Of a DNA stretch of 64,000 nucleotides, positions 8,259 through 21,539 are shown in pieces (positions within the stretch are counted from its first letter, which is position 1; each line of letters starts with the position of its first letter). The notes below the pieces were generated by a model that did no database searches, was not told where the DNA came from, and worked only from the letters and a program-made list of their open reading frames with translations. The stretch spans positions 62,001-126,000 of the forward strand of contig JAUSBR010000004.1 of NCBI GenBank assembly GCA_030651895.1. The letters run 5' to 3'. The DNA is from Sideroxyarcus sp. GTDB taxonomy: Bacteria > Pseudomonadota > Gammaproteobacteria > Burkholderiales > Gallionellaceae. Both the position numbers and the translations under genes were made by a program.

Positions 8259-9424
8259 TTCGCCCCCTTCGCTGCCGCCACGACTTTTTGCGCCGCATCT
8301 GCCATGTCGTTGCCGGAGATGATGGGCAGACCCGATTCGGCCAGTATCTTTTTGCCGAGCTCGACGTTGGTACCTTCCAGTCGCACCACCAGCGGCACAT
8401 TGAGGCTCACTTCGCGCGCCGCCGCGACCACGCCCTCGGCGATCACGTCGCACTTCATGATGCCACCGAAGATGTTGACCAGGATGGCTTTGAGATGCGG
8501 ATTCTTCAGCATCAGCTTGAATGCCTCGGTGACCTTCTCCTTGTTCGCGCCGCCGCCCACGTCGAGGAAGTTGGCCGGGCTGCCGCCGTACAGTTTGATG
8601 ATGTCCATGGTCGCCATCGCCAGACCGGCGCCGTTCACCAGACAGCCGATGTCGCCGTCGAGCTGGATGTAGCTCAGGTCGAACTTCGACGCCTCGATCT
8701 CGGCCGGATCTTCTTCGTCGAGATCGCGGTAAGCCACGATTTCGGGGCGGCGATACAGCGCATTGGAATCGAAATTGAATTTGGCATCGAGGGCGACGAC
8801 ACGATTGTCCGCCGTGAGGATCAGCGGATTGATCTCGGCCAGCATCGCGTCTTTTTCCACAAAAGCCTGATACAACCCCTGCAACACCTTCACCGCTTCC
8901 GCGTTCGCCACATCGGGGATGCCGATGGCGCGCGCGACTTCCGCGCCCTCCTTGTCGGTCAATCCCGTGACAGGATCGATGCGCACGGTGCGAATCTTTT
9001 CCGGCGAATGCCTGGCGACCTCTTCGATCTCCATGCCCCCCTCGCTGGAAGCCAGCAGGGCCACGCGCTGCGAAGCGCGATCCACCACCATTCCGATGTA
9101 GAATTCCTTGACGATCTGCGCGCCCTCCTCGACCAGCAGGCGGCGCACCTTCTGCCCTTCCGGCCCGGTCTGGTGCGTCACCAGTTGCATGCCGAGGATC
9201 TGCTGCGCATGGCTCTTCACTTCGTCGAGCGACTTCGCCACCTTCACACCGCCGCCCTTGCCGCGTCCGCCCGCGTGGATCTGCGCCTTCACCACCCAGA
9301 CCTTGCCGCCCAGCTTCTGCGCGGCGGCAACCGCCTCGTCAACGCTGAAACACGCCGTTCCGCGCGGCGTCGGCACGCCGAATCCGCGCAGGATCTCTTT
9401 GCCTTGGTATTCGTGGATTTTCAT
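8255..9424 (-). CDS. sucC: Succinyl-CoA ligase (ADP-forming), beta subunit
   Basis: 389 aa, the usual length. N-terminal ATP-grasp domain ([33 protein letters not shown]) and C-terminal ligase domain ([25 protein letters not shown]). It provides the nucleotide- and succinate-binding half of the TCA-cycle enzyme and is co-translated with sucD through a 4-nt overlap. The 127 bp between it and the porin gene upstream hold a strong palindrome (9496-9529) that should separate the two operons. Confidence 0.98.
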
Positions 9425-9495
9425 GATGACCGCTCGCGTAGGGGACAGCCCGAAATTTACCAGAGCTTGAGTGAATTCGCAGGCCTTTCAATGCA

Positions 9496-9529
9496 ACGGG
9501 GTCGCCGGACTAGCATCCGGCGACCCCGT
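9496..9529 (-). terminator. Perfect 14-bp stem-loop after the porin-cytochrome operon
   Basis: Left arm 9496-9509 (ACGGGGTCGCCGGA) and right arm 9516-9529 are exact inverted copies with a 6-nt loop (CTAGCA). It sits 22 bp past the porin stop codon on the minus strand. There is no clean T-run after it in that direction (TTGCATTGAAAGG), so it may work as a weak terminator or as a 3' stabiliser of the operon mRNA. Confidence 0.6.
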
Positions 9530-9551
9530 CAGGGTTACAACGACACTTTTT

Positions 9552-11741
9552 TCAGAAATCCCAGCGCATACCCAGCGAGTAGGTGGTGCGGGTCGTCTTG
9601 TCGGATTGTGTCGCACCGCTGTAATTGGCGAACTCAAGCCCGAAATCGCCATCCACATACAACTCATCCCGGATGCGGTACGAGCCGCGCACCATCGGTG
9701 CAGTACGCTTGGACGTACCGCCATTCTGGTCGGTGTGATTGGAGAATTGCAAAGAGGAATCCATCGTCCAGCCGCTGTTGAATTGCGTGTGGTTGTAGAA
9801 GAAAAGACTGTTGCCCTTGACTGCGCTACCGTTGCTGAAGCTCAAGCTGGCCGACCAGGTATCCCCCTCCCGCAGCAGGTTGCTGCCGATGACTTGGCCG
9901 GTCAGCCCTTTTTCCAGTCCGCGTCCCGGCAAGGCCGTTGTGCTGCCGACGAGCGCGGCCGAGGTCGGCGAGGCCGCATCATATCCGGACAATCCGGTCG
10001 GATCGATTCCGGAGACGCCGGTGGTGTTGGAAACGCGCAAAGTGCCGATCGCCTGCCAGTTCTTACGCACCGGTACCGATACGCCGACCTGCCCCAGATT
10101 GGAAATAGAGGTACGCGCCAATGCCAGTTGGCGCAGACCGGTCGGCGACACCGCCTGCAGCATGGTGCTGACGGAAGAGGTACCCGCGCCGTTCAGCGCG
10201 TTGCGTATGCTCAGCGGCTTGCGGTGGTCGATCATGTAATTCAGGTTGTAACCCGGCATGCTGTTCGAGCCCATGATCTGCGCGGTGTTCACCGCCTTGA
10301 AATAGGCGTCGTAATCCAGCAGGGCATAGACCGTCTGCTTCTCCTGGTAATAACGGAACTCGGTACCCAGTGCACGGCGATCCTGCACACCGTCCACGGT
10401 CTGGTTGATGCCGTAGAACGACATCATGCCGCTTTCCACGCTCAAGCCGGCGAATCTCGGCTTGCTGCTGTCCGAGTAATCGGCCACTCTGCCGGCCACG
10501 GCATTGACCCGGAAGCTGCGCGAATCGCCATAGCCCCCGGCGATACCGTCGAAGCGGCTCTGCACACCGCTGCCCATCGAGCTCTGGCGACCGACACGCA
10601 CCAGATAATCGCTGGTGCGGCCCTTGATCTCGCCGTAAGCGACATTGAGACGGTTCTGGCTGGGCTGGTTGTCGACGAAGTTCAGCATGTTGACATCACT
10701 GAACACCAAGCGACCGTCGAATTCCTCGCTCAGGTAGCGCTGCGAAGCGTTGACGGTGGAGATCAGCATGGACTGGTCGACCGAAGACTGCGACGTAGTC
10801 GTGCTCGTGTTGTTGAGGATGAAGGTCGAATCGGTCTTGCTGCTGCCATAGTAATAATGCGAAGAGACCCCGCCGAAATACAGCCAGCGCGCGGCCTGCT
10901 TTTTGCGCTCTTTGGTCTGCACGATGGTCGGCTTGGGATCGTCGGGCCGGTTGCCCAGGCTTTCCAGCCTTTGCGCCACGCGCGATGCCCCCTCGCCGTT
11001 GGGATACAGCCTCAGGTACAAGTCATACTCGACCTTGGCCTTGTCGAGCTGGCCCGCGCGTTGGCGCGCCACACCGACCCACTCCTGCCCGTCCTGCGTG
11101 TAATCGTTGGGAGGAAGCAGCAGCAGCTTGTTGAAATTGTCCACCGCGACCTCGTTGTTCTTGGCCACCAGCGCTTCGCGCCCTTTCACCATCAGCGCGC
11201 GCGCCTGCGTGTTGACCTCCGCCATCTGCACCTGCATCGCGGTGGCACCGACCGCAACCGCAACCTCCGGCTTGATCACGGGCAGCGCAGTCAATGTCGC
11301 GCTGAGCACCGGTCTTTTTTCCGGCTTGATGGTGATCAGCAGGCTGCGATTGTCTTTCCCCATCGACACGCTGTACTCCGCCTCGCGCGAGAACTGCACG
11401 ACCAACTTGGGTTTGACATTCTGGTCGCGCGTGGTCACCGTAAAGCTGGGGATCAGACCGGAGGGCGGCGACTTGAGCACTTCATTGTCGGACCACTTCT
11501 CGTCGCCCGCAGGCCCCTTCACGCGCTCGTAGAATATCTCCAGCGTGTCACCGTGGCTGGCCGGAAAGTGGCTCTGGTACTGCACCGGTCCGGTCAGCAG
11601 GATGGTCGCGACCACGCCGCTATCCTGAAACTCCAGGCGCATGTCCTCAAGCGGCTGCGCATACGCGCTGACCGACAAGCCAGCCGCTGCCAGCAGGCCG
11701 TAGATCTTACGGCACGAATTCCCGAAATAACTGCGTATCAT
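9552..11741 (-). CDS. Outer-membrane beta-barrel (porin) with periplasmic TPR region, conduit partner of the multiheme cytochromes
   Basis: 729 aa. Start taken at ATG 11741 (MIRSYFGNSC), because GAGGAG lies just ahead; a longer frame begins at 11783. A signal peptide ends near SAYA|QP. Residues about 25-160 form a beta-rich domain, about 175-275 TPR-like helices (MVKGREALVAK, AKVEYDLYLRLYPNGEG), and from about 290 on alternating aromatic/polar strands end in GMRWDF, a typical outer-membrane C-terminal Phe. It is not obviously MtrB/MtoB. As last gene of the operon with the 24- and 18-heme cytochromes, it most likely forms the sheath that lets a heme wire cross the outer membrane. Confidence 0.8.
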   Translation of the reverse strand: MIRSYFGNSCRKIYGLLAAAGLSVSAYAQPLEDMRLEFQDSGVVATILLTGPVQYQSHFPASHGDTLEIFYERVKGPAGDEKWSDNEVLKSPPSGLIPSFTVTTRDQNVKPKLVVQFSREAEYSVSMGKDNRSLLITIKPEKRPVLSATLTALPVIKPEVAVAVGATAMQVQMAEVNTQARALMVKGREALVAKNNEVAVDNFNKLLLLPPNDYTQDGQEWVGVARQRAGQLDKAKVEYDLYLRLYPNGEGASRVAQRLESLGNRPDDPKPTIVQTKERKKQAARWLYFGGVSSHYYYGSSKTDSTFILNNTSTTTSQSSVDQSMLISTVNASQRYLSEEFDGRLVFSDVNMLNFVDNQPSQNRLNVAYGEIKGRTSDYLVRVGRQSSMGSGVQSRFDGIAGGYGDSRSFRVNAVAGRVADYSDSSKPRFAGLSVESGMMSFYGINQTVDGVQDRRALGTEFRYYQEKQTVYALLDYDAYFKAVNTAQIMGSNSMPGYNLNYMIDHRKPLSIRNALNGAGTSSVSTMLQAVSPTGLRQLALARTSISNLGQVGVSVPVRKNWQAIGTLRVSNTTGVSGIDPTGLSGYDAASPTSAALVGSTTALPGRGLEKGLTGQVIGSNLLREGDTWSASLSFSNGSAVKGNSLFFYNHTQFNSGWTMDSSLQFSNHTDQNGGTSKRTAPMVRGSYRIRDELYVDGDFGLEFANYSGATQSDKTTRTTYSLGMRWDF

Positions 11742-11844
11742 TCCCCAGCTCCTCAAATTATTCTTTCCGTCTCGCCGCATCATCCGGCCGCGGAATTATT
11801 TCCCTGCTCCGGAGCTGCATGACGCAGCCCCGGTCTTGCATCGA

Positions 11845-13437
11845 TCACCATCTGCTGTAGGCAGTACCTCTGTTGCCCAGCGGCTTGTGGCAACCGGACT
11901 TGGAGCAATCGTCCCCGGCCCCCATACCCTCATGGCCGACCGACTTCGTGCTCTGGCCATTACCCGAATATGGATTGTTCTTCAGGTGGCAAGTCGTGCA
12001 TGCATATCCCGCCAGATAGGGGACGTGCAATGCACTGCCGCTCTTCACGGTCGTCGGAGTGGTGTGACATGAAACGCAAGTCGTTCCGCCCGCATAGGGG
12101 ATATGGTTGGTTGGTTTGCCGCCCAGTGCGGGCGACCAGCCGGTCTTCAGATGGCACTGGCCGCACTCATCCGTGGTGGTGATATGACCGCCTGGCTTGC
12201 CGAGCGCCGCTCCGGTATGGCAGGTCGAACAGACATCCGATGCGCCTGCGCCGGTGTGGTTATAGTGCGCACCGGTGAAGGTGATGTAGTTCGTACCGTG
12301 GCAATCCTGGCAGTTGGTGATTCCCGAAGTCACATAGGCAGTATGCTTCGCCCGATTCGTCGAAATCTGAGTCATGCCCGCGGCATATGCCACATCGTCA
12401 TGGCATGTCGCGCAAGCCGATGCGCCCGAATGGCTGAACCTCGACCCTGCCCAGGCGGCCGTGCTGGTGTGGCATGAACCGCAACTGCCTATGCCCGCAG
12501 CTGAATACGCGCCATGTGCGGCCGTGGACGATATCTTGGTCATTTCCGGCGAATAGTCCGGCGTACCGCTGTGGCAATTCTGGCAAAGACCCGAAGTGGC
12601 CGTGTGGTCAAAGCGACCCGAAGCAAAAGTGCCGATGCCGAAGCTCTTGTGGCATGTGTTGCACGCCATGGATGCAGCTGCATATTTGGCATGGGCAGTC
12701 GTCGAAGCGACCTGCGTCACTCCGGGCGCATAGGCACCGTTCTGGTGGCAACTCCCGCACACAGCGGAAGCTCCCGAGTGATTGTAGTAGGCACTGGCAA
12801 AGGTGAGATAGTTGGTATGACAAGCCTTGCAATTGCCAGTGAAATTCACCGTGTCCATGCCCATCGGCAAGTGCCCGCCAGCATAATTGCGCCCCGGCCC
12901 GCCCGCTTTATGGCACACCGAGCAATCCGACGCGGTGTCGCTGTGATTCCATCTGGCCGGCACCCACGCGCTGCTTCGGTGGCAGTTGTCGCAGGACGCG
13001 CCCACCAGGGTCGAGACCGGGTGGTTGGACGGTGTACCCGGCTCGATGCGGCCGTTGTGGCAGTTGGTGCATTCGCCGGGTCTGGCCGTGCCGTGGTTGA
13101 AGCGCGCGCCAAAGAAGGTGGAGGTGTTGAAGTGGCAGGTATCGCAGGGCGCGTCGGTCACGATGTGCTTGGTCGATTTCGGCGTCGCCACCACGCGTCG
13201 TCCTGTGGCATGACAGCCGTCGCAAGTCCTGGGGGTGCCGACGAACACGCCGCCGACGTGGCAGTTCTCGCATGAGGTGGTGGCATGGCCGCCAGCCAGC
13301 GGAAATCCGGTCGACAGATGGTTGAATTCGAGATCGACTTTTGGCGCGGCCTTTGGCCCGGCAGCCTGCACTTGCATGGCCCCCAGCATCAGAATCGCGG
13401 CCAGCAGATAGCCCAGTATTTTTCCCAGTCGTTTCAT
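11845..13437 (-). CDS. Secreted 18-heme c-type cytochrome
   Basis: 530 aa with a Sec signal peptide (MKRLGKILGYLLAAILMLGA, cleavage near VQA|AG); no lipobox. I count 17 CXXCH motifs plus one CX4CH (CSKSGCH) near the C-terminus, so up to 18 hemes, one per about 29 residues. Many extra histidines (FNHG, YNHSG, RFDHTA, RFSHSG) can be distal ligands. Unlike the neighbouring cytochrome it is rich in Gly/Ala/Ser/Thr and low in Lys, which would suit an outer-membrane or cell-surface position. The 103 bp before the porin gene contain a GC-rich hairpin. Expected role: extracellular or membrane-spanning electron carrier. Confidence 0.92.
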   Translation of the reverse strand: MKRLGKILGYLLAAILMLGAMQVQAAGPKAAPKVDLEFNHLSTGFPLAGGHATTSCENCHVGGVFVGTPRTCDGCHATGRRVVATPKSTKHIVTDAPCDTCHFNTSTFFGARFNHGTARPGECTNCHNGRIEPGTPSNHPVSTLVGASCDNCHRSSAWVPARWNHSDTASDCSVCHKAGGPGRNYAGGHLPMGMDTVNFTGNCKACHTNYLTFASAYYNHSGASAVCGSCHQNGAYAPGVTQVASTTAHAKYAAASMACNTCHKSFGIGTFASGRFDHTATSGLCQNCHSGTPDYSPEMTKISSTAAHGAYSAAGIGSCGSCHTSTAAWAGSRFSHSGASACATCHDDVAYAAGMTQISTNRAKHTAYVTSGITNCQDCHGTNYITFTGAHYNHTGAGASDVCSTCHTGAALGKPGGHITTTDECGQCHLKTGWSPALGGKPTNHIPYAGGTTCVSCHTTPTTVKSGSALHVPYLAGYACTTCHLKNNPYSGNGQSTKSVGHEGMGAGDDCSKSGCHKPLGNRGTAYSRW

Positions 13438-13558
13438 CGCCCAGCTCCTCTTAATTATTCATTCCATGCACACCGGTCAAACCGACTTCTCCCCTTCTCC
13501 AAGAGGACACATCTGACCGGCATTTCCCTTCAACACCACCCTGCCCGCTTGCGGCAGA

Positions 13559-15388
13559 TTATTTCTTGCGCGCCTTCACTACAGTCTTCACCACATCCGT
13601 TCTGATCTGTTTCCAGTCGTTGCCGATATGGCAGCGTTCGCAACGGTCGCCATAGCTGCCGTTGTGTACATCCTCGCGGTCATGACAACTGCCGCATGAA
13701 CTGGCCAGCGACACCTTCTTGCCCATCGGCTTGGAATGGCAGCTGTAACACTTGTTGGCGATCTTCTTGTGCGCGCCGTCCAGCTTGAAATTGGTCTTGT
13801 CATGGTTGAAATCCCATGCCATCCAGTCGCGCACGTTGTGGCAATCCTGGCACTCGGTACCGAAACGGCGCTTGTGCGTCTTGGCATCGTCCTTCTGGTG
13901 ACACGACCAGCAATCTGTCTCGGCATCCTTGAATGTCGGTGCGGCATGACACTTCTTGCACTCCACCAGCATGTGCCGTCCCAGCAGCGGGAAGACCGAC
14001 ATGCTCCCGTGATCGAAGGTGGTCTTGTTCCATGATTTCTCGTCATGGCAGGACTCGCACTTCTTGCCTTCCTGCCCTTTGTGCTTGTCGTCCTTTTCAT
14101 GGCAGGAGTAGCAATCTTTCGGCAACTTGTCCGTCAGGTTTTTCTTGTGGCAGCTCACGCACTTGGCTGCCTTGTGTTTGCCCAGCAGCGGATACTTGGT
14201 CTGCTTGCCGTGATCGAAAGTGATCTCTTTCCAGCCGCGCTCGATGTGACAAGACTCGCATTTCTTGCCGAAGTTCCCCTTGTGCGACTTGTCGTCGTCC
14301 TTTTTGTGGCAGGAAATACAGGTCAGCTCCAGCTTGTCCTTGTACAGATCGCCTTTGTGGCACTCGGTGCACTTCAGCGGCGAACGGTGCTTGCCCAGCA
14401 AGGGGAACTTGGTCTTGTCGTGGTCGAACTTGATCTCTTTCCAGTCTTTCTCGACGTGGCAGGACTCGCACTTATTGCCGAACTTGCCCTTGTGCGCCTT
14501 GTCGTCGTCCTTCTTGTGGCAGGAACTGCACTGCTTGGGGGTGTCTTTGAACTTGTTGTCGATATGACACTTGGTGCAACCCACTTCGTTGTGCTTGCCC
14601 AACAGGGGATACTTGGTCAGCTTGTCGTGATCGTACTTGATCTCTTTCCAGTCGCGATCGACGTGGCAGGACTCGCACTTCTTGCCCAGCTTGCCCTTGT
14701 GCGCCTTGTCATCGTCTTTCTTGTGGCAGGACACACAATCCTTCGGCGTGTCCTTGAACTTGTTGTCGATGTGGCACTTGTCGCACTTCACGTCGGTGTG
14801 CTTGCCACGCAGCTTGAAGTCGAACTTGTCGTGATCGACGGTGGTGGTCTTCCAGTCTTTCTCGGAGTGGCACTTCGCGCAATCGGTGCCCAGCTTGCCC
14901 TTGTGCGCCTTGTCGTCGTCCTTCTTGTGGCAGTCGTTGCACAGGCTCGGTGCTTCTGAGTATTTCTTGTCCTTCTTGTGGCAGTCCTCGCACTTGACCT
15001 TGTTGGTGTCGGCGTGTTTTCCCTTCAGCGGGTAATCGGTCTTGAGGTGGTCAAATGTCGCCTTGTCCAGCACGACGATCTTGGCATCGCGCCCCTTGTG
15101 GTCGGTATGGCATTCCTTGCAATCCTTGCCCTGCTCGATGCGACCGTGGTAACCGCGCTGGCCTTCGACATCCTTGGCCACATCCTTGTGGCAGTCGCTG
15201 CACAGACGGTTCTGCGCGCCCTTGTCGAACTTCTTGTGGCATTTCTCGCACGTCTCTTCTTCCTTGGCATGGCCCTGAATGACCTCTCCTGGCATCAACA
15301 ACTTGTTGGCCTGCGCCTGCATGGGTAGCAGCGCAAACAAAAGACAGACTGCGGCAAAGGATCGAAGTATCGTCGTCATGGATTGCAT
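13559..15388 (-). CDS. Secreted 24-heme c-type cytochrome with tandem three-heme repeats
   Basis: 609 aa, Sec signal peptide (cleavage near AQA|NK), 24 CXXCH motifs. The centre (residues about 150-550) is six copies of a roughly 68-residue, three-heme unit: CHKKDDDKAHKGK, then CESCHVxxDWKEI, a DHDK-PLLGKH stretch with candidate distal His, and CxKCHIDNKFKDTPK. It is extremely Lys/Asp-rich and basic, as expected for a periplasmic wire. It starts 7 bp after the cytochrome b-like gene with no visible ribosome binding site, so translation is probably coupled. A second ATG (15379) is possible. Likely carries electrons across the periplasm between outer-membrane conduit and inner membrane. Confidence 0.93.
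   Translation of the reverse strand: MQSMTTILRSFAAVCLLFALLPMQAQANKLLMPGEVIQGHAKEEETCEKCHKKFDKGAQNRLCSDCHKDVAKDVEGQRGYHGRIEQGKDCKECHTDHKGRDAKIVVLDKATFDHLKTDYPLKGKHADTNKVKCEDCHKKDKKYSEAPSLCNDCHKKDDDKAHKGKLGTDCAKCHSEKDWKTTTVDHDKFDFKLRGKHTDVKCDKCHIDNKFKDTPKDCVSCHKKDDDKAHKGKLGKKCESCHVDRDWKEIKYDHDKLTKYPLLGKHNEVGCTKCHIDNKFKDTPKQCSSCHKKDDDKAHKGKFGNKCESCHVEKDWKEIKFDHDKTKFPLLGKHRSPLKCTECHKGDLYKDKLELTCISCHKKDDDKSHKGNFGKKCESCHIERGWKEITFDHGKQTKYPLLGKHKAAKCVSCHKKNLTDKLPKDCYSCHEKDDKHKGQEGKKCESCHDEKSWNKTTFDHGSMSVFPLLGRHMLVECKKCHAAPTFKDAETDCWSCHQKDDAKTHKRRFGTECQDCHNVRDWMAWDFNHDKTNFKLDGAHKKIANKCYSCHSKPMGKKVSLASSCGSCHDREDVHNGSYGDRCERCHIGNDWKQIRTDVVKTVVKARKK
13740..14932. repeat. Tandem repeat array within the 24-heme cytochrome gene
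   Basis: Six units of about 198-210 bp (66-70 codons), each encoding three heme sites. The strongest DNA-level copies share the forward-strand string TTGCCCTTGTGCGCC at 14484, 14691 and 14895, with a diverged copy at 14274. The outer units are more diverged. The pattern points to growth of the protein by in-frame duplication of a triheme module. Confidence 0.85.
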
Positions 15389-15395
15389 TCGCGGT

Positions 15396-16292
15396 TTAGT
15401 AGGCGTGGACAGCGTAGACGTGGTAGACCGCGCTGAACACCATCAAATAGACGAGCGGGATATGGAAGACGTGCCACAGCGAGAACAGCCGCTCGTAGGT
15501 GTGGAACTGCGAAGCATCACGGACTGCGACAAGATAGGTATGTATCTTGTCGCGGTACTCTTCATACATACCTTTCATGCTCTGCTTCTGCGCGTCAGTG
15601 AAATTCTTCTCTTTCGCCTGTGCATTCATGACCCGGCGCAATTGCCAGGGCAGATAGAGCGACAGCCACCATACCCGCAGGCTGGTGATGATGAAATTGC
15701 CGAGACCGAGACCGGTGTTCTTGGTGTATTTTTCGGCCTTGGCATGGAAATGATTCAGTTTTTCCTCAACCTTGGGTGCGAAGTGGAATGCGGACTTCAC
15801 ATCCCCTTTCTGTTCCATATCACCCTTAAGTTCGTTCACCGTTGCCTGACGACCGTAGAGACCGTGGTGGATCTTGGTATAGAAGAATCGACCGAAGGTG
15901 CCGCTACCCGACACCAGCAGCATGCAATACATGGCCACGGCGGCATTGATCGAGCCGGTGGGATGGATATAGGGGATGTAGACGTGGTAGGTGGAGTGAA
16001 AGACGATGGTCAGTGGACCCAGGATGCCCAGAACCATATGCCATTTGAACCAGGTGGGCAGGAAGCCGAAGTTCTCCAGGAATCGCCAGCGCTTGCGCAA
16101 AGGATAGAGCAACAGAGTCAGCATCATCAGGCCGCCCGCCAGACCGAGGTTATAGCCGAAATCGAACATCTCCTCGCCGGGGGTGTAAAGCGTCTGCGGA
16201 TACACCAGGAAGTATCCGCCGAACGTGATAAGGCCGACGATTCCAATGAATATCAGCCAGGGGAGATGCTCGGAATGTTTGCTCGACTTCAT
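15396..16292 (-). CDS. Inner-membrane b-type cytochrome-like protein (first gene of the porin-cytochrome operon)
   Basis: 298 aa, about five to six membrane helices: about 12-32, 46-63, 82-103, 116-135, 203-222 and 270-290. Histidine pairs at helix ends (FKWHMVLG, FHSTYHVYIP, LWHVFHIPL, AVYHVYAVHAY) suggest two b hemes, as in cytochrome b561 or ferric-reductase-like proteins. A cytoplasmic or periplasmic loop (about 135-200) is charged. There is no CXXCH. It should pass electrons between the quinone pool and the 24-heme cytochrome. The family identity is uncertain; heme binding is inferred from the histidines and the context. Confidence 0.75.
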   Translation of the reverse strand: MKSSKHSEHLPWLIFIGIVGLITFGGYFLVYPQTLYTPGEEMFDFGYNLGLAGGLMMLTLLLYPLRKRWRFLENFGFLPTWFKWHMVLGILGPLTIVFHSTYHVYIPYIHPTGSINAAVAMYCMLLVSGSGTFGRFFYTKIHHGLYGRQATVNELKGDMEQKGDVKSAFHFAPKVEEKLNHFHAKAEKYTKNTGLGLGNFIITSLRVWWLSLYLPWQLRRVMNAQAKEKNFTDAQKQSMKGMYEEYRDKIHTYLVAVRDASQFHTYERLFSLWHVFHIPLVYLMVFSAVYHVYAVHAY

Positions 16293-16300
16293 AATATATA

Positions 16301-16331
16301 GTTATCCAAATAACCCTTTGATAAAAAAGGG
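16301..16331 (-). promoter_or_regulatory. Two stem-loops in the 5' leader of the cytochrome operon
   Basis: On the minus strand the leader would begin with CCCTTT-TTTATC-AAAGGG (16331-16314), followed by GTTAT-TTGG-ATAAC (16314-16301), then nine nt to the ATG at 16292. The second loop holds the only Shine-Dalgarno-like stretch (TTGGAT). The structures could stabilise the mRNA or limit translation of the first gene. Confidence 0.4.
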
Positions 16332-16337
16332 CCGCGC

Positions 16338-16366
16338 ATTGTAATATCGCCCTGCCGGAACGGCAA
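16338..16366 (-). promoter_or_regulatory. Sigma70-like promoter of the porin-cytochrome operon
   Basis: Minus-strand TTGCCG (16366-16361), 17-bp spacer, TACAAT (16343-16338). It places transcription start near 16331, about 39 nt ahead of the first start codon. The rest of the 237-bp divergent region contains the CTTAAG box of the opposite gene. Confidence 0.5.
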
Positions 16367-16477
16367 ACAGGAATTATGTCGTTAGCGTTTTATTCAACAC
16401 GGCATAAAATGCCCGGCATGCGACTGACGCTATCCGGCATTAGTTCCTGATTCGAACTTCATTCAAACACAAACTGT

Positions 16478-16494
16478 CTTAAGCCGGGCTTAAG
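16478..16494 (+). promoter_or_regulatory. PmrA/QseB-type box upstream of the FAD oxidoreductase
   Basis: CTTAAG-CCGGG-CTTAAG, two half-sites with 5-bp spacing, matching the known PmrA box layout (YTTAAK-N5-YTTAAK). It ends 6 bp before a weak -10-like GACAAT (16501-16506), where a PmrA-type activator replaces the -35 element, and 35 bp before the ATG at 16530. The same box occurs at 21523-21539. Confidence 0.65.
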
Positions 16495-16529
16495 AATGCA
16501 GACAATAACCACTAGACCCACTCTGTGAC

Positions 16530-17825
16530 ATGGACATATTTGACCTATCTATCTATCTGATTCCGCTCGTTATCATCGCTTTTATCTATCTGAGCGGCCG
16601 CAAGAAAAAAGAACGCGCGTCCATCGAGACACTGAACGAATCCATCGTGGCCGGACTGACCGAGCCGCCCTCCCTGCATCCGGAGATTAACCCTAATCTC
16701 TGCCTGGGTTCCGGCACCTGCATCACCGCCTGTCCTGAACATGCGATCGGCATGATCAAGGGCAAGGCCGTGCTGGTGAACCCGACCCACTGCATCGGCC
16801 ACGGCGCCTGCGCTGTCGCCTGCCCGCACGACGCGATCACGCTGGTGTTCGGCACCTCCAAGCGCGGCATGGACATCCCGCAGGTCAGCCCCTCCTTTGA
16901 GACCAATGTCCCCGGCATCTTCATCGCGGGCGAACTCGGCGGCATGGGCCTGATCCGCAAGGCGGCCACCCAGGGCACCCAGGCCATCGAACACATCGCC
17001 AAGCTCAAGAGCGGTGGTACCCCCTACGACGTGGTCATCATCGGCGCGGGGCCGGCCGGCCTTTCCGCCACGCTGGGCGCCATCGAAAAGAAGCTGAATT
17101 ACGTCACCGTCGAACAGGAGACCTCGCTCGGCGGCTGCATCTTCCAGTATCCGCGCAACAAGGTGGTCATGACCGCACCTGTGAAACTACCGCTGGTCGG
17201 CGAGATGCGTTTCAAGGAAGTCAGCAAGGAGAAGCTGCTCGAGTTCTGGCATGGCATCGTGGCAAAGACCAGCATGAAGCTGAACTTCAACGAGCGCATG
17301 GAGAACATCACCAAGACCGACAAGGGCTTCATCGTCAAGACCAACAAGGGGTCCTACGAGACCCGCGCCGTGCTGCTGGCCATCGGTCGTCGCGGCACAC
17401 CGCGCAAATTGGGCGTGCCCGGCGAAGACTTGCCCAAAGTGGTGTATCGCCTGATCGAACCCGAGCAATACAAGAACATGCATGTGCTGGTGGTCGGCGG
17501 CGGTGACAGCGCGCTGGAGGCGGCCATGGCCATCGCCGAGCAGCCCGGCACCACGGTCACCCTCTCCTACCGCAGCGATGCCTTCGGCCGCGGCAAACCG
17601 AAGAACCGCGAGCGCCTGAAAACGATGACGGACAAGGGCCTGATCGATGTGCGCCTGAAATCCAACGTCAAGATGGTGGAGGAAAAGACCCTCGTGCTCG
17701 AACAGAACGGCAAGATGACGGAGATACCCAACGACGGTATCATCGTCTGCGCCGGCGGCATCCTGCCCACCCCGTTCCTCAAGGAAATCGGCGTGCTGGT
17801 GGAAACCAAGTTCGGCACTAGCTGA
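16530..17825 (+). CDS. Membrane-anchored ferredoxin-FAD pyridine-nucleotide-type oxidoreductase
   Basis: 431 aa. N-terminal membrane anchor (about 5-22), ferredoxin-like domain (about 50-110), then an FAD/NAD(P)-binding thioredoxin-reductase-like domain (VVIIGAGPAGLSA near 168, VLVVGGGDSALEAA near 318, closing with GIIVCAGG). Both iron-sulfur motifs are CX5CX3CP (CLGSGTCITACP and CIGHGACAVACP), so the second cysteine of the usual CXXCXXCXXXCP is replaced by Ser and His. No redox CXXC of thioredoxin reductase is present. Likely couples NAD(P)H and a low-potential carrier at the membrane. It diverges from the cytochrome operon and is preceded by a PmrA/QseB-type box. Confidence 0.85.
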   Translation: MDIFDLSIYLIPLVIIAFIYLSGRKKKERASIETLNESIVAGLTEPPSLHPEINPNLCLGSGTCITACPEHAIGMIKGKAVLVNPTHCIGHGACAVACPHDAITLVFGTSKRGMDIPQVSPSFETNVPGIFIAGELGGMGLIRKAATQGTQAIEHIAKLKSGGTPYDVVIIGAGPAGLSATLGAIEKKLNYVTVEQETSLGGCIFQYPRNKVVMTAPVKLPLVGEMRFKEVSKEKLLEFWHGIVAKTSMKLNFNERMENITKTDKGFIVKTNKGSYETRAVLLAIGRRGTPRKLGVPGEDLPKVVYRLIEPEQYKNMHVLVVGGGDSALEAAMAIAEQPGTTVTLSYRSDAFGRGKPKNRERLKTMTDKGLIDVRLKSNVKMVEEKTLVLEQNGKMTEIPNDGIIVCAGGILPTPFLKEIGVLVETKFGTS

Positions 17826-17838
17826 TCGCAGGCAGAGT

Positions 17839-19167
17839 CTAAGGGCGGAAAGTGACCGCCACGCACAGACCACGGGCATTGTCTGCCCGCGAGAAGTGCA
17901 CGGCAGCGCCGTGCACTTCGGCGATCCTTCTGACGATGGACAGCCCCAGCCCGCTGCCGCTGGCCTGGGTGTCCGCAGGACGATAGAAGCGCTCTGAAAC
18001 TCTGCTCATCTCCTGTTCCGAGATACCGGAGCCGTCGTCGCACACCGACAGGCTGGCAAGGCCTTCCCGCTGCACGACAACCACACGAACCGTAGTGCCC
18101 GAACTCGTGTGCCGCACGGCGTTATCGATCAGATTGCGCGCCAGGATGCGCAGCAATTCAGGATTGCCGCGCACCGTGACTTCTTCCCCTTCCGGCAATT
18201 CGATGTGCACACCTTTGTCCAAAGCAAGCGGCGCGATCACCGCGATCTCGCCGGCCGCGATATCCCGCAAACGGCATGACTGCGCAACAGCGACTTCCAG
18301 CGCGTCGACGCGCGCCAGCGTGAGCAGCTGTTCGATCAGATGTGCGGCGCGGTCGCAACCCAGGATCGCGTTGTCGAGCGCATGGTTGCGCTCCGCGGTA
18401 CCGCTTGCGTTGCGTGCCACCTGTGCCTGCGCCTTGATCCCCGCCACGGGCGTGCGCAATTCGTGCGCCGCATCCGCAGTGAAACGGCGCTCGCGCTGGA
18501 AAGTGGAATCGATACGGGCGAACAGCCGGTTGAGCCGCTCGATCAGCGGCAGCACCTCGCGCGGCGCGGCGACCGCATCCAGCGGCGTCAGCGTCTCCGG
18601 ATCGCGCCGCTCCAGTTCCGCCGCCAGTTTGTCCAGCGGGCGCAGGCCGCGCGCGACCGCAACCCACAACAGCAAAGCCAGCAGCGGTAATGAGAACAGC
18701 AGTGGCTGCAACAGATTGCCTGCGATATCGCGCGCCAGTTCTTCGCGCACATCTGCGCGTTCCGCCACATGGATCAGGAATTGCCCCGTCTCGTCCCAGG
18801 CACTGAACACGCGCCAGCGATGACCGTCGATGACACTGTCGCTGAAGCCTTCTTCCACATCGGCCAGATGCCGCTGCGTCGCATTGGCGGAGTGCATGCG
18901 CAATATCTTCCCGCCCTCCCATATCTGAAACGCCACCTGGCGCGCGTATTTGTGCAGCAGCGGTGCGTGATCCGTCTCCAGCTCGTCGAGCTCGTGTGCG
19001 GCCTGGGCGGACAGTAGCGCGGCATCCTGCGCCAGATGCGCATCCAACACCTCGTCGAACTCTTCGCGCGCATCGAAGTAGATGAACGTGGATGCACCCA
19101 CCCACACCACCACCACTGTCGTCAGCGCCAATGCCAGCAAGCGTCTCTTTAATGAATGTCCCTGCAT
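17839..19167 (-). CDS. Sensor histidine kinase, QseC/PmrB type
   Basis: 442 aa: membrane helix (about 8-30), periplasmic sensor region (about 31-150), second helix (about 155-173), short HAMP-like linker, dimerisation helix with phosphorylated His235 (AAHELRTP), and an ATPase domain with NLIDNAVRH, DDGSGI and GSGLGLSIV. It lacks a clear metal-binding ExxE motif in the sensor region, although acidic stretches (EEFDEVLDAH) are present. Its ATG follows the regulator stop by 1 nt, so the pair is co-translated. Last gene of the SHP operon, ending convergently 13 bp from the oxidoreductase gene. Confidence 0.95.
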   Translation of the reverse strand: MQGHSLKRRLLALALTTVVVVWVGASTFIYFDAREEFDEVLDAHLAQDAALLSAQAAHELDELETDHAPLLHKYARQVAFQIWEGGKILRMHSANATQRHLADVEEGFSDSVIDGHRWRVFSAWDETGQFLIHVAERADVREELARDIAGNLLQPLLFSLPLLALLLWVAVARGLRPLDKLAAELERRDPETLTPLDAVAAPREVLPLIERLNRLFARIDSTFQRERRFTADAAHELRTPVAGIKAQAQVARNASGTAERNHALDNAILGCDRAAHLIEQLLTLARVDALEVAVAQSCRLRDIAAGEIAVIAPLALDKGVHIELPEGEEVTVRGNPELLRILARNLIDNAVRHTSSGTTVRVVVVQREGLASLSVCDDGSGISEQEMSRVSERFYRPADTQASGSGLGLSIVRRIAEVHGAAVHFSRADNARGLCVAVTFRP

Positions 19168-19168
19168 C

Positions 19169-19837
19169 TCAATCTGCCTTGTCGGCGGGGATCAGATAAC
19201 CCACGCCGCGTATCGTCTCTATCAGTTCGGGGAACAGTTTGCGGCGCAGATGATGGATGTGCACCTCGACCGCATTGCTCTCGACCTCTTCGCCCCATGC
19301 ATATAGCTGCTCCTCGAGCTGCGCGCGCGACAGCACCTTGCCGGCATTCAGCAGCAGGGCATGCAGTACCGCGAACTCCTTGGGTGACAGATCGGCAGGC
19401 TGCTCGCGACAGGTCACGCGATGGGCGGCGGGATCGAGCTTGATCCCGGCAACCTGCAACAGCAGATCGACCTTGCCGCTGGCACGGCGAATCAGCGCGC
19501 GCAATCGCGCCGCCAATTCGCCCATGTCGAAGGGTTTGAGCAGATAGTCGTCCGCCCCGGCATCCAGTCCTTTGATGCGGTCGTTCACGGTATCGCGTGC
19601 AGTGAGGATGAGTACTGGTATGGATGAATTGCGGCTGCGCAGGCGCTGCAACACCTCCAGCCCGGAAAGACGCGGCAGCCCCAGGTCGAGCACCACGGCG
19701 GCATAGGCTTCCGTGCCGAGCGCGTGGTCGGCCGCGATGCCGTCCTTCATCCAGTCGACGGCGTAGCCGGCCTGTTTCAAGCCGGCCTGTATGGCATCGC
19801 CCAACAGGGCGTCATCCTCGACCACCAGCACGCGCAT
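19169..19837 (-). CDS. OmpR-family response regulator, QseB/PmrA type
   Basis: 222 aa: receiver domain with phospho-acceptor Asp51 (VVLDLGLP) and acidic pocket VVEDD, then a winged-helix DNA-binding domain (LSPKEFAVLHAL, VEVHIHHLRRKL, IRGVGYL). It belongs to the same operon as the cytochromes, 20 bp after the b561 gene. Its subfamily binds CTTAAG-type repeats in other bacteria, and two exact CTTAAG-N5-CTTAAG boxes occur nearby, so autoregulation plus control of the oxidoreductase is likely. Confidence 0.95.
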   Translation of the reverse strand: MRVLVVEDDALLGDAIQAGLKQAGYAVDWMKDGIAADHALGTEAYAAVVLDLGLPRLSGLEVLQRLRSRNSSIPVLILTARDTVNDRIKGLDAGADDYLLKPFDMGELAARLRALIRRASGKVDLLLQVAGIKLDPAAHRVTCREQPADLSPKEFAVLHALLLNAGKVLSRAQLEEQLYAWGEEVESNAVEVHIHHLRRKLFPELIETIRGVGYLIPADKAD

Positions 19838-19857: not shown

Positions 19858-20526
19858 TCAATCGTCGTCATCGCGTTGTTCGGCATGACCCGCAAACTCG
19901 GCGGGCGCCATCGCGCTGAGCGCGGAATAGCCGGCCCAGAACGTCACCACCGCGAGCAGCATTATGACACCCAGCCAGGCATACGAACGCTCTTCGCCGG
20001 CTTCGGGGGCGGCTTCTTTCGTTCCGCTGATCATGGCACTCACCAGGTTCTCGCGGTGCAGGATACTGCTCACCACGACGCCGGCGATATGCACGGCCAC
20101 GACTGCCAGCATGGCGAAGGAAAGCACCTCATGCAGTTCTTCCATCATGTCGCCGCCGATATCCTGAAACAGCAGCACGCCGCTCGCGCCCGAACCGATG
20201 ATCAGGAACAGCAGCAGCCAGATCGCCACACTGCCGGCCGGATTGTGCCCCACATAGCGTTCTGCCCTGCCTCTGGCCAACGCAGACACATAAGTAAGGA
20301 CCTCACCCGAGGTGAACAGGAAGGAAGCGAAGCGCGCATAACGCGTACCCATGAATCCCCACAGCACCCTGAAGGCGATCAGCCCCAGCATGGTATATCC
20401 CAGCATCACATGGATGTCGCGATAGCGCTCCGATTCCGAGGTCAGAAAGACGCCGCAGAACGACAGCACCATCGACCAGTGGAACACCCGCGTCGGCACA
20501 TCCCAAACCTGGATCCGTTCACTCAT
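19858..20526 (-). CDS. Cytochrome b561-family membrane protein (SHP/DHC cluster)
   Basis: 222 aa, four main membrane helices plus a fifth near the C-terminus. Heme-ligand histidines in the expected helices: RVFHWSMVLSF, RDIHVMLGY, EELHEVLSF and VAVHIAGV. The acidic tail ends in DDDD. It starts 14 bp after the diheme cytochrome gene. In characterised SHP/DHC gene clusters the b-type cytochrome delivers quinol electrons to the diheme cytochrome; the same role is inferred here. Confidence 0.92.
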   Translation of the reverse strand: MSERIQVWDVPTRVFHWSMVLSFCGVFLTSESERYRDIHVMLGYTMLGLIAFRVLWGFMGTRYARFASFLFTSGEVLTYVSALARGRAERYVGHNPAGSVAIWLLLFLIIGSGASGVLLFQDIGGDMMEELHEVLSFAMLAVVAVHIAGVVVSSILHRENLVSAMISGTKEAAPEAGEERSYAWLGVIMLLAVVTFWAGYSALSAMAPAEFAGHAEQRDDDD

Positions 20527-20540
20527 GATCTTCGTGCCTT

Positions 20541-21041
20541 CTATTTGGGCATGCGGATATTGCGCTCGCGGTAATCACCGCTCTCCGCCAGGGTATGGCA
20601 GGCCGCGCAATTGGCCGGGCTCTTCACCAGTGGATTCTTCCATACGCGCTGCGGCACCTCGTCATGCTCGCGGATGAACCAGCGCGTTTCGCTGATGCGC
20701 AGCAGGGGTTTGGCGACCGGATCCGGCTTCCGCTTACCGGCATTTTGCTCGAGGAATGCAGCGATCTCTTGCGCAACTGCAGGCTCCAGGCTCGCATCCG
20801 TACCGAAATGCTTGTCCAGCCCGGACATCATCTCGCGCCAGGACTCGGCGGGCAGCAAGCGCGGGGGGAAGGCCACATGGCACGAGCCGCACTCTTCCTG
20901 CCAGGCGGCATTGGTGGCGACAGCCCTGCGGCCGCCCTCGTGGTGCTCGTGATCGTCATCAGCCTGCGCGACAGACATCATCCCTCCCAGCAGGATGATG
21001 ACTGCGGACATGCGCAAAGTGTTTCGATTGTCGAACGGCAT
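20541..21041 (-). CDS. Diheme cytochrome c (DHC type)
   Basis: 166 aa with signal peptide (cleavage near AQA|DD) and two heme sites, CGSCH (about residue 51) and CAACH (about residue 146). The ATG at 21041 is preceded by AAGGAGG at proper spacing; a longer open frame upstream only overlaps the SHP gene in another frame. A His-rich N-terminus (DDDHEHHEGG) may bind metal. DHC proteins pass electrons from a b-type cytochrome to SHP, and all three genes are adjacent here. Confidence 0.92.
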   Translation of the reverse strand: MPFDNRNTLRMSAVIILLGGMMSVAQADDDHEHHEGGRRAVATNAAWQEECGSCHVAFPPRLLPAESWREMMSGLDKHFGTDASLEPAVAQEIAAFLEQNAGKRKPDPVAKPLLRISETRWFIREHDEVPQRVWKNPLVKSPANCAACHTLAESGDYRERNIRMPK

Positions 21042-21051
21042 GATGGCCTCC

Positions 21052-21471
21052 TTATTTCCCGATAGTGAGCAGGTAGGTGAGCACATCGCCCTTTTCCTGC
21101 GGCGTGCAGGCGCGCGCGAGTACGTCGTTGCAATTGCGCTTGAACCACTTCTCGACCTTGGTTGGATCAGTGAAACGCTCTGGATTGACCAGCGGCGCCA
21201 GCGGCTTGATGACCTTGCTGGTTTTGGCGTGCTTGCCGCTGTTTGCCGGATCTTCGGTATGGCAGGAAGCGCAGCTCCATTCGTTACCGTGGGTTGACTT
21301 GAAGAACTGTTCGCCGTTCGCTGCAGAAAAACTCTGGAACCCGGGGCTGGACTTTGCCGACCTGGCAAACTCGGCCATGAACTGGCCGAATGTTTCGGCG
21401 CATGCCGGTTGCACCGCCAGACCGCTCATTACGACCAGCAGCAGAACCAGCAAAGTATTTATACGCGACAT
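21052..21471 (-). CDS. shp: SHP-type (sphaeroides heme protein, DUF1924) high-spin cytochrome c
   Basis: 139 aa with signal peptide (cleavage near ACA|ET) and a single heme site CASCH at residues 67-71. Near the C-terminus, KRNCNDVLARAC gives Asn113 directly before Cys114, with Cys122 eight residues on. In SHP, an Asn in a disulfide-closed loop is the sixth ligand and swings away when O2 or NO binds; these residues fit that arrangement. First gene of the SHP-DHC-b561-regulator-kinase operon. It probably serves as a terminal oxygen- or nitrogen-oxide-binding reductase; the physiological substrate is not known. Confidence 0.88.
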   Translation of the reverse strand: MSRINTLLVLLLVVMSGLAVQPACAETFGQFMAEFARSAKSSPGFQSFSAANGEQFFKSTHGNEWSCASCHTEDPANSGKHAKTSKVIKPLAPLVNPERFTDPTKVEKWFKRNCNDVLARACTPQEKGDVLTYLLTIGK

Positions 21472-21522: not shown

Positions 21523-21539
21523 CTTAAGACAAGCTTAAG
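21523..21539 (-). promoter_or_regulatory. PmrA/QseB-type box upstream of the SHP operon
   Basis: CTTAAG-ACAAG-CTTAAG (as read on the plus strand), the same layout as the box at 16478. A further CTTAAT lies at 21542-21547. On the minus strand the box ends 7 bp before a weak -10-like TTCTAT (21515-21510), and 51 bp before the SHP start codon. Likely bound by the regulator encoded in this operon. Confidence 0.65.

Follow-up and report, generated by a model that had tools for sequence, protein, structure and literature searches.

The DNA analysed here, which we call the window, is a stretch of 64,000 nucleotides from Sideroxyarcus sp. (Gallionellaceae; assembly GCA_030651895.1, contig JAUSBR010000004.1, positions 62,001 to 126,000). 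On its minus strand, reading from position 16292 to 9552, are four genes that form a porin-cytochrome cluster of the kind known as PCC3. Next to them, on the plus strand, is the gene for a protein that we call FFO and consider a candidate fifth component of this system.

The first gene of the cluster (15396..16292) encodes the inner-membrane protein (IMP; 298 amino acids), which has two WX3HX13H motifs, probably holding two b hemes, and an SGXXG motif. It is followed by a periplasmic 24-heme cytochrome c (13559..15388; 609 amino acids), which is Lys-rich and made up of eight three-heme units, and by an outer (“extracellular”) cytochrome c (11845..13437; 530 amino acids), which is rich in Gly, Ser, Thr, and Ala and has 17 CXXCH motifs plus a last site that reads CX4CH. 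Both of these multiheme cytochromes (MHCs) have a signal-peptide-like start, and on inspection of its sequence we saw no lipobox in the outer one. The last gene (9552..11783) encodes an outer-membrane barrel protein of 743 amino acids with no CXXCH, in which a beta domain (residues 45-153) and a TPR region (182-277) precede a predicted 22-strand barrel (299-742). FFO (16530..17825, plus strand) starts with a membrane helix at its N-terminus, followed by a ferredoxin-like domain and an apparently permuted FAD/NAD(P) part like that of thioredoxin reductase (TrxR).

A preliminary description of this DNA had listed a b-type-like membrane protein, a 24-CXXCH cytochrome, a cytochrome with 17 CXXCH plus one CX4CH, and a barrel, and we confirmed all four open reading frames, on one strand, at these coordinates. 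We rejected a chance origin of the heme motifs because 500 shufflings of the residues gave far fewer of them (a mean of 0.35 CXXCH and a maximum of 3 for the 24-site protein; a mean of 0.19 and a maximum of 2 for the 17+1-site protein). We could not support the further claim that one promoter drives the operon: there are two promoter-like sites in positions 9300-16600 (2.9 expected), of which the one at 16366-16338 reads into the operon, and gaps of 121 and 61 bp lie upstream of the last two genes. The barrel gene probably starts at 11741, which is better placed and has a GAGG site.

The window's own genome, which is 73% complete, has one IMP and no MtoA-family cytochrome above the cut-off. 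A record titled “Gallionellaceae bacterium UBA12482” (L125 below) has an IMP that is 100% identical to the window's and an FFO that is 97% identical, and the host is thus closely related to that bacterium.

PCC3 membership and related conduits

The name PCC3 dates from 2017, and a 2025 paper still described the system as “functionally unverified” (PMC12442390; statements from this and the other papers are cited from parts of each). The model of He 2017 (PMC5566968) has four parts, including a quinone-linked IMP with five helices, two WX3HX13H motifs, and SGXXG; the HX13H pairs are likened there to those of ferric reductases or NADPH oxidases and of cytochrome b, and the porins are given up to 42 predicted transmembrane regions. 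For the Gallionellaceae, Table 1 of Hoover 2023 (PMC10734462) lists periplasmic MHCs with 21, 24, or 27 hemes and outer MHCs with 10-35. The window's cluster brings together a barrel, an outer MHC, a periplasmic MHC, and an IMP, whose places in the envelope are predicted. The gene order and the IMP motifs match the published descriptions, and the 24 and 18 heme sites lie inside the published counts. On these grounds, the four genes are a PCC3 cluster, as the preliminary description had proposed, and a member of an already described kind. What we add is a divergently encoded Fe-S/FAD/NAD(P) protein as a near-constant fifth part, where the published PCC3 has four, as well as a three-heme step in the periplasmic cytochrome, a 22-strand barrel model, and an N-terminal beta domain.

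When we searched Gallionellaceae genomes, the cytochromes and the barrel were found together, as expected by the preliminary description. In a family sample of 150 genomes, the barrel is present in 70 and the IMP in 61, with both in 60. Fifty-two stretches were fetched for having the IMP and the barrel on one contig, so here the order, not the co-occurrence, is the result: all 52 read IMP, an MHC with 21, 24, or 27 hemes, one or two more MHCs, and barrel, on one strand. We also scanned genome contigs with an IMP profile and kept the best 80 of 182 relatives (the named loci, L125-L204), whose record titles include Thiobacillus, Polaromonas, Steroidobacteraceae, and Nitrospira. Not all of these are full sets (many stop at a contig edge). 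Two copies of WX3HX13H along with SGXXG are present in all 76 of the IMP frames in these loci that are longer than 240 amino acids.

A few of the named loci are unusual. In L151 and L152, the IMP (60% and 59% identity to that of the window) stands by itself, with no cytochromes, barrel, or FFO in the locus; in L151, the open reading frames that precede the IMP look flagellar by eye. PCC3-type loci are also present in L188 (titled as a Klebsiella pneumoniae metagenome-assembled genome) and in L182 (titled Rhizobium sp.). Because the IMP of L182 groups within the Thiobacillus clade, this record is probably mistitled or drawn from a mixed bin. Four Nitrospirota records (L193, L194, L199, and L202) have a PCC3 IMP and a 24-heme periplasmic cytochrome. 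In the three from Nitrospira (L193, L194, and L202), the barrel and the outer MHC are on the opposite strand from the IMP and the periplasmic MHC, and FFO sits beyond the barrel; L199 is cut. We found no report of PCC3 in Nitrospira in the literature we searched, and He 2017 mentions Nitrospira once.

Like MtrCAB and MtoAB, the cluster places cytochromes and a barrel at the outer membrane, but no CymA-type gene is among the window's four. Membership in the Mtr/Mto group was rejected because the two cytochromes score just 46 and 23.3 bits against the DmsE/MtrA-family model (cut-off 192.2) and because family-model scans with Pfam and NCBIfam found no match of the barrel to an MtrB-type family at E<=1. 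MtrB forms a barrel of 26 strands, whereas 22 are predicted for the window's protein, and the earlier phrase “a porin unlike MtrB” is supported. PCC3 porins as a kind are described as lacking homology to MtrB/PioB and OmbB. The cluster also differs from the Uet system (as described in part of Hoover 2023, PMC10734462), which has separate three-heme cytochromes, undecaheme and tetraheme cytochromes, NHL proteins, and a barrel; the window's cluster has the 24- and 18-site cytochromes and no NHL gene, and the window lacks all of the Uet-like outer-membrane genes described below for Rhodocyclales.

FFO, a candidate fifth component

Strong matches to FFO (>300 bits) were found in 64 of the 71 family genomes with PCC3 (IMP or barrel present) and in none of the 79 genomes with neither (Fisher 7e-35, relatedness ignored). 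The 64 include the window's genome and its near-copy G093. Weaker matches in 19 further family genomes (31-37% identity) are confined to the flavin part and lie mostly in frames of roughly 800 amino acids; we did not count them as FFO. As a control, we considered the 17 family genomes that have an MtoA match (16 of them over the cut-off) and no PCC3, and none of them has a strong FFO.

A similar association is seen more broadly. Among 369 genomes from 272 genera of the class (cut-offs of E<=1e-40 for the IMP and E<=1e-50 for FFO), 42 have the IMP, 43 have FFO, and 41 have both (Fisher 7e-51, relatedness ignored), out of 44 with either. If three more genomes with a weak and partial IMP and no FFO are included, then 41 of 45 IMP genomes have FFO. 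As for the mismatches, G340 has an FFO fragment beside its IMP, in G327, FFO occurs with a PCC3 barrel and a cytochrome, and G247 has a 3.5-kb contig with pieces of FFO and a 4-heme cytochrome. The two genes are usually neighbors: they are divergent on 38 of the 41 class contigs with both (within 1 kb in 31 of the 38), and of the 80 named loci, 57 have FFO head-to-head with the IMP at less than 1 kb, and another 6 have it at a different place in the locus. A phylum sample of 398 genomes gave 15 IMP matches, including 9 that are weak and partial. In three genomes of this sample (G745, G863, and G648), the strong IMP has no FFO within 1.5 kb. Wider stretches place FFO behind the barrel in G745 and upstream, at a distance of about 4.4 kb, in G648; none lies in the 8.8 kb upstream in G863, where the contig ends inside the cluster. 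Overall, the distribution suggests that FFO is a near-constant fifth component of PCC3. The preliminary description's “four-gene” operon thus has the right genes but an incomplete count, as a fifth gene is nearly always present in relatives.

We aligned 26 FFO sequences. There is no variation in the six cluster cysteines (58, 64, 68, 88, 94, and 98), in His91, or in the glycines of the FAD and NAD(P) motifs, and position 61 is Ser or Ala in 25 sequences and Cys in one. From residue 166 to 430, FFO matches thioredoxin reductases, TrxR-like ferredoxin-NADP reductases, and YpdA, beginning near the N-terminus of these proteins, and residues 116-158 resemble the C-terminal segment of TrxR-type chains (a weak match with a best E of 0.024, albeit to the same region in many chains). 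Because of these matches, the flavin part appears to be circularly permuted; the ferredoxin domain precedes it. In all 26 sequences, there are more Lys and Arg residues after the helix than before it, which by the positive-inside rule would place the catalytic part in the cytoplasm. Judging from these motifs, FFO may use NAD(P)H.

The pairing of a membrane protein with two HX13H motifs and an NAD(P)-binding flavoprotein, whose soluble part is predicted to be cytoplasmic, resembles the NADPH oxidases and ferric reductases. It differs in that FFO is a separate, membrane-anchored protein with a TrxR-like, permuted flavin part and an extra ferredoxin domain. Split forms that resemble NADPH oxidase exist in bacteria, such as MsrQ with Fre. 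No Pfam family matched the IMP above its cut-off (PF01794 included), and a profile search against solved structures gave four weak matches without bearing.

The likeness of the flavin part to TrxR and YpdA would also suit a helper in c-heme maturation, that is, a reductase on the cytoplasmic side that supplies the apocytochrome thiols or the heme with electrons for the 40-odd c hemes. By clustering, a CcmI-type family is found near FFO or PCC3 in 11 of the 80 named loci (L174, L175, L179, L180, L183, L184, L185, L188, L193, L194, and L202), and family models confirm it in both of the loci checked (L188, along with CcmF and CcmH, and L193). However, a CXXC is present in the flavin part of none of the 26 sequences, and the FAD motif reads GPAG at what we take to be the position of the active cysteine of YpdA. 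Also, FFO pairs with the IMP and is missing from the genomes of the MtoA control. We therefore consider a maturation role to be improbable.

A link between FFO and PCC3 is not mentioned in the main texts that we searched (supplements, figures, subscription papers, and preprints lay outside the search). The main text of He 2017 (PMC5566968) uses none of the words “flavoprotein,” “FAD,” and “ferredoxin.” “Flavoprotein,” “pyridine nucleotide,” and “NADPH” are absent from Hoover 2023 (PMC10734462), which, in the part cited here, mentions ferredoxin for Rnf and for a cluster in Table 1 with a CX2-4CH motif. Terms of the flavoprotein type are also absent from the paper on strain CL21 (PMC12442390), both papers on Sideroxydans ES-1 (PMC8788666 and PMC12016527), and a 2026 paper on Leptothrix, and we found no paper, in the literature searched, that pairs PCC3 with a flavoprotein or that concerns the locus tags that adjoin the PCC3 clusters of ES-1. 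The “4Fe-4S ferredoxin” in Table 1 of Hoover 2023 (cluster 360, in 41 of 87 genomes) was rejected as a candidate for FFO: it has one CX2-4CH motif, which is found in none of the 26 FFOs. Genome G050 may be ES-1, whose published heme numbers it shares (17+1 with 21, and 28+1 with 24). It has two FFOs, the first of which adjoins the first cluster at the barrel end, with the other elsewhere; if G050 is ES-1, then the first FFO would be the gene next to Slit_0867.

Cytochromes, barrel, and possibly exchangeable outer sets

To count hemes in the periplasmic cytochrome, we used the MHC that comes first after the IMP on the same strand. (Of 123 records, we omitted eight from the cytochrome counts because the frame runs off the contig.) Among 82 distinct complete frames, 80 have 18 (n = 3), 21 (14), 24 (53), or 27 (10) hemes. 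The two exceptions, L161 (9 sites) and L173 (10 sites), are broken frames that end inside a repeat unit; in L161, the IMP is also split, and in L173, the cytochrome continues in another frame. The spacing of the motifs repeats at roughly 17-18-33 residues per unit, with distinct end units. On a tree of the IMP (79 rows, with 21 of the 76 inner branches weakly supported), parsimony gives about 17 changes of heme class. It appears that three-heme units have been gained and lost within narrow bounds, as expected for a part that reaches from membrane to membrane. Hoover 2023 (PMC10734462), which lists 21, 24, and 27 hemes, suggested a length that spans the periplasm; in the part cited here, we saw no comment on the step of three.

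The outer MHC follows no such rule. It has from 6 to 60 hemes, and among 73 distinct sequences, the number modulo 3 is 0, 1, or 2 in 33, 19, and 21. The last heme site is CX4CH in 46 of the 73. When we compared 36 short with 20 long forms, with the heme motifs masked, the N-terminal 110 residues had a mean score of 157.6 (standard deviation 57.1), versus 59.2 (44.8) for the C-terminal 110 residues and 54.3 (50.6) for middle pieces. The N-terminus thus seems to be the constant end and is a candidate for the portion that is held in the barrel. The preliminary description had assigned the 24-heme protein to the periplasm and the 18-heme protein to the barrel or beyond it. This division of labor is plausible, given a periplasmic count in threes within narrow bounds and an outer cytochrome that is conserved at its N-terminus and variable in the remainder.

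An AlphaFold2 model of the barrel protein (pLDDT 86.4, pTM 0.58) shows the beta domain, the TPR helices, and the 22 strands. By sequence, the TPR is weak (E 0.007, below the Pfam cut-off), but it is clear in the model, which bears out the N-terminal TPR region of the preliminary description. With Foldseek, the best 50 of the 360 matches to the model (E<=0.001) are ordinary porins and pilus ushers, with no closer relative among them, and TM-scores in these 50 reach at most 0.31 by query length and 0.46 by target length. In G019 (contig C166) and G028 (contig C11, L118), the barrel frames are about 1000 amino acids long, and each has two matches to the query's N-terminal beta domain.

With heme numbers this high, the cytochromes might instead be a charge store in the periplasm or at the surface, with the barrel as a pore for export or anchoring. 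Storage is also raised by Hoover 2023 (PMC10734462), and the N-terminal beta domain and TPR of the barrel protein would suit a docking role. A capacitor would not readily account for a conserved set of four or five parts with predicted places from the cytoplasm to the outer membrane, nor for periplasmic hemes that come in threes from 18 to 27 while the outer hemes are unbounded, as a spanning length would require. We consider this explanation to be very unlikely.

In three loci from Rhodocyclales (L191, L195, and L198), the IMP, an 18-heme cytochrome, and FFO are consecutive on one strand, and in two of these, the listed frames of FFO and the cytochrome overlap by a few bases. The divergent genes encode an NHL-repeat protein, a barrel-like protein, and a 4-heme cytochrome, as well as an 11-heme cytochrome in L191 (family models were run for L195 and L191). 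By description only, this gene list resembles Uet (in the part of Hoover 2023 cited, PMC10734462). These loci suggest that the IMP, the periplasmic wire, and FFO are an inner module that can be joined to other outer-membrane sets.

Regulation and electron flow

Between the divergent FFO and IMP genes is a perfect CTTAAG-N5-CTTAAG element (16478..16494, plus strand). This resembles the PmrA box of Salmonella, which reads CTTAAG, five bases, XTTAAT (PMC3973317). Allowing one mismatch, the 64-kb window has two matches, both perfect (0.01 expected). The second (21523..21539, plus strand) is 52 bp upstream of an operon that includes DUF1924 and DHC diheme cytochromes and a cytochrome b561 (19858-21471), followed by a response regulator (19169..19837) and a histidine kinase (17839..19167), both on the minus strand. 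The best models for the regulator are PmrA and QseB and for the kinase QseC and PmrB, all below their cut-offs; the kinase is a candidate regulator of PCC3 in this clade. In enteric bacteria, PmrB senses Fe(III).

Homologs of this pair are found in 8 of the 80 named loci. Perfect boxes are present in the gap between FFO and the IMP in four of the eight loci with the regulator (including L125, whose genome is almost the same as the window's), versus none of 47 without it (one of which has a box with one mismatch). Across all 80 loci (1,288,899 bases), there are 11 perfect boxes, and 10 of these are in six of the eight regulator loci. The box is not a general feature of PCC3, given its absence from those 47 gaps. 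Because the box and the regulator are distributed together, the locus is probably controlled in this clade by the neighboring QseBC/PmrAB-like pair.

We favor, as rather likely, the view that PCC3 is a five-part electron conduit across the envelope. FFO would exchange electrons with the cytoplasmic b heme of the IMP, so that the two would jointly act in the manner of a split NADPH oxidase or ferric reductase. The periplasmic b heme would pass electrons to or from the 24-heme wire, the length of which would be set in three-heme steps to bridge the periplasm. The wire would contact the outer cytochrome at the N-terminal hemes of the latter, which would sit in the barrel, and the far end of that cytochrome would exchange electrons with a substrate outside the cell.

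Several observations weigh against this five-part conduit. FFO is absent from 17 of the 80 named loci (3 of the 17 have less than 1.5 kb upstream), and 7 of the 71 PCC3-bearing family genomes lack a strong match. Six of the loci without FFO (L158, L159, L162, L166, L167, and L201) are additional PCC3 copies, their genomes having PCC3 at another locus as well, and in G069 a single FFO accompanies three IMPs. Divergent neighbors such as FFO and the IMP need not work together, and the CcmI-type genes near PCC3 suit a maturation role instead. Both Fe-S motifs of FFO deviate from CX2CX2CX3CP at the second ligand position, and the use of NAD(P)H is read from motifs. AlphaFold2 modeled the 24-heme protein too poorly (pLDDT 65.7, pTM 0.31) for its length to be measured. 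Finally, the IMP of copy 2 in CL21 goes up during iron oxidation (PMC12442390), contrary to a purely outward role.

The preliminary description had assigned the conduit to Fe(II) oxidation, and published expression data do not bear this out. In ES-1, both PCC3 clusters are down on Fe(II) (PMC8788666), and on magnetite, the first was largely undetected and the second was at similar levels in all samples (PMC12016527). During iron oxidation in CL21, copy 1 is down and copy 2 is up, with significance for the copy-2 IMP only (PMC12442390).

These data bear on the model of He 2017 (PMC5566968), in which, as we would extend it, PCC3 takes electrons from Fe(II) or another outside donor, the IMP delivers them to the quinone pool, and FFO is a separate fellow traveler. 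The reports of PCC3 in the genomes of Gallionellaceae iron oxidizers (Hoover 2023, PMC10734462) and the rise of the copy-2 IMP in CL21 agree with it. The ES-1 results do not, and He 2017 found PCC3 in only a few of the known iron oxidizers. Furthermore, a passenger would not be expected in 64 of 71 PCC3-bearing genomes and none of 79 others, or together with the IMP in 41 of 44 class genomes. We regard this alternative as rather doubtful.

Within the five-part conduit, we infer the direction of flow from the inner reactant. If this is NAD(P)H, then outward flow is favored, because electrons moving inward from Fe(II) to NAD(P)+ would have to go uphill and work against the membrane potential. 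It is possible, and we propose it tentatively, that PCC3 is an NAD(P)H-linked exporter in which a di-heme-b IMP and a permuted TrxR-like FFO with a His-containing Fe-S site feed a wire built in three-heme steps and joined to exchangeable outer sets.

PCC3 itself is a known kind; the main gain is the putative fifth component and what it may imply for the inner electron partner and the direction of flow. The three-heme step and the swapped outer set in Rhodocyclales suggest that envelope-spanning wires are modular in design. The fifth component predicts a cytoplasmic link to NAD(P)H, whether in place of the quinone pool or in addition to it. It also makes the direction of electron flow experimentally testable and offers a possible marker gene. 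If PCC3 does export electrons, then hosts known as oxidizers of iron, sulfur, or nitrite would reduce things outside the cell.

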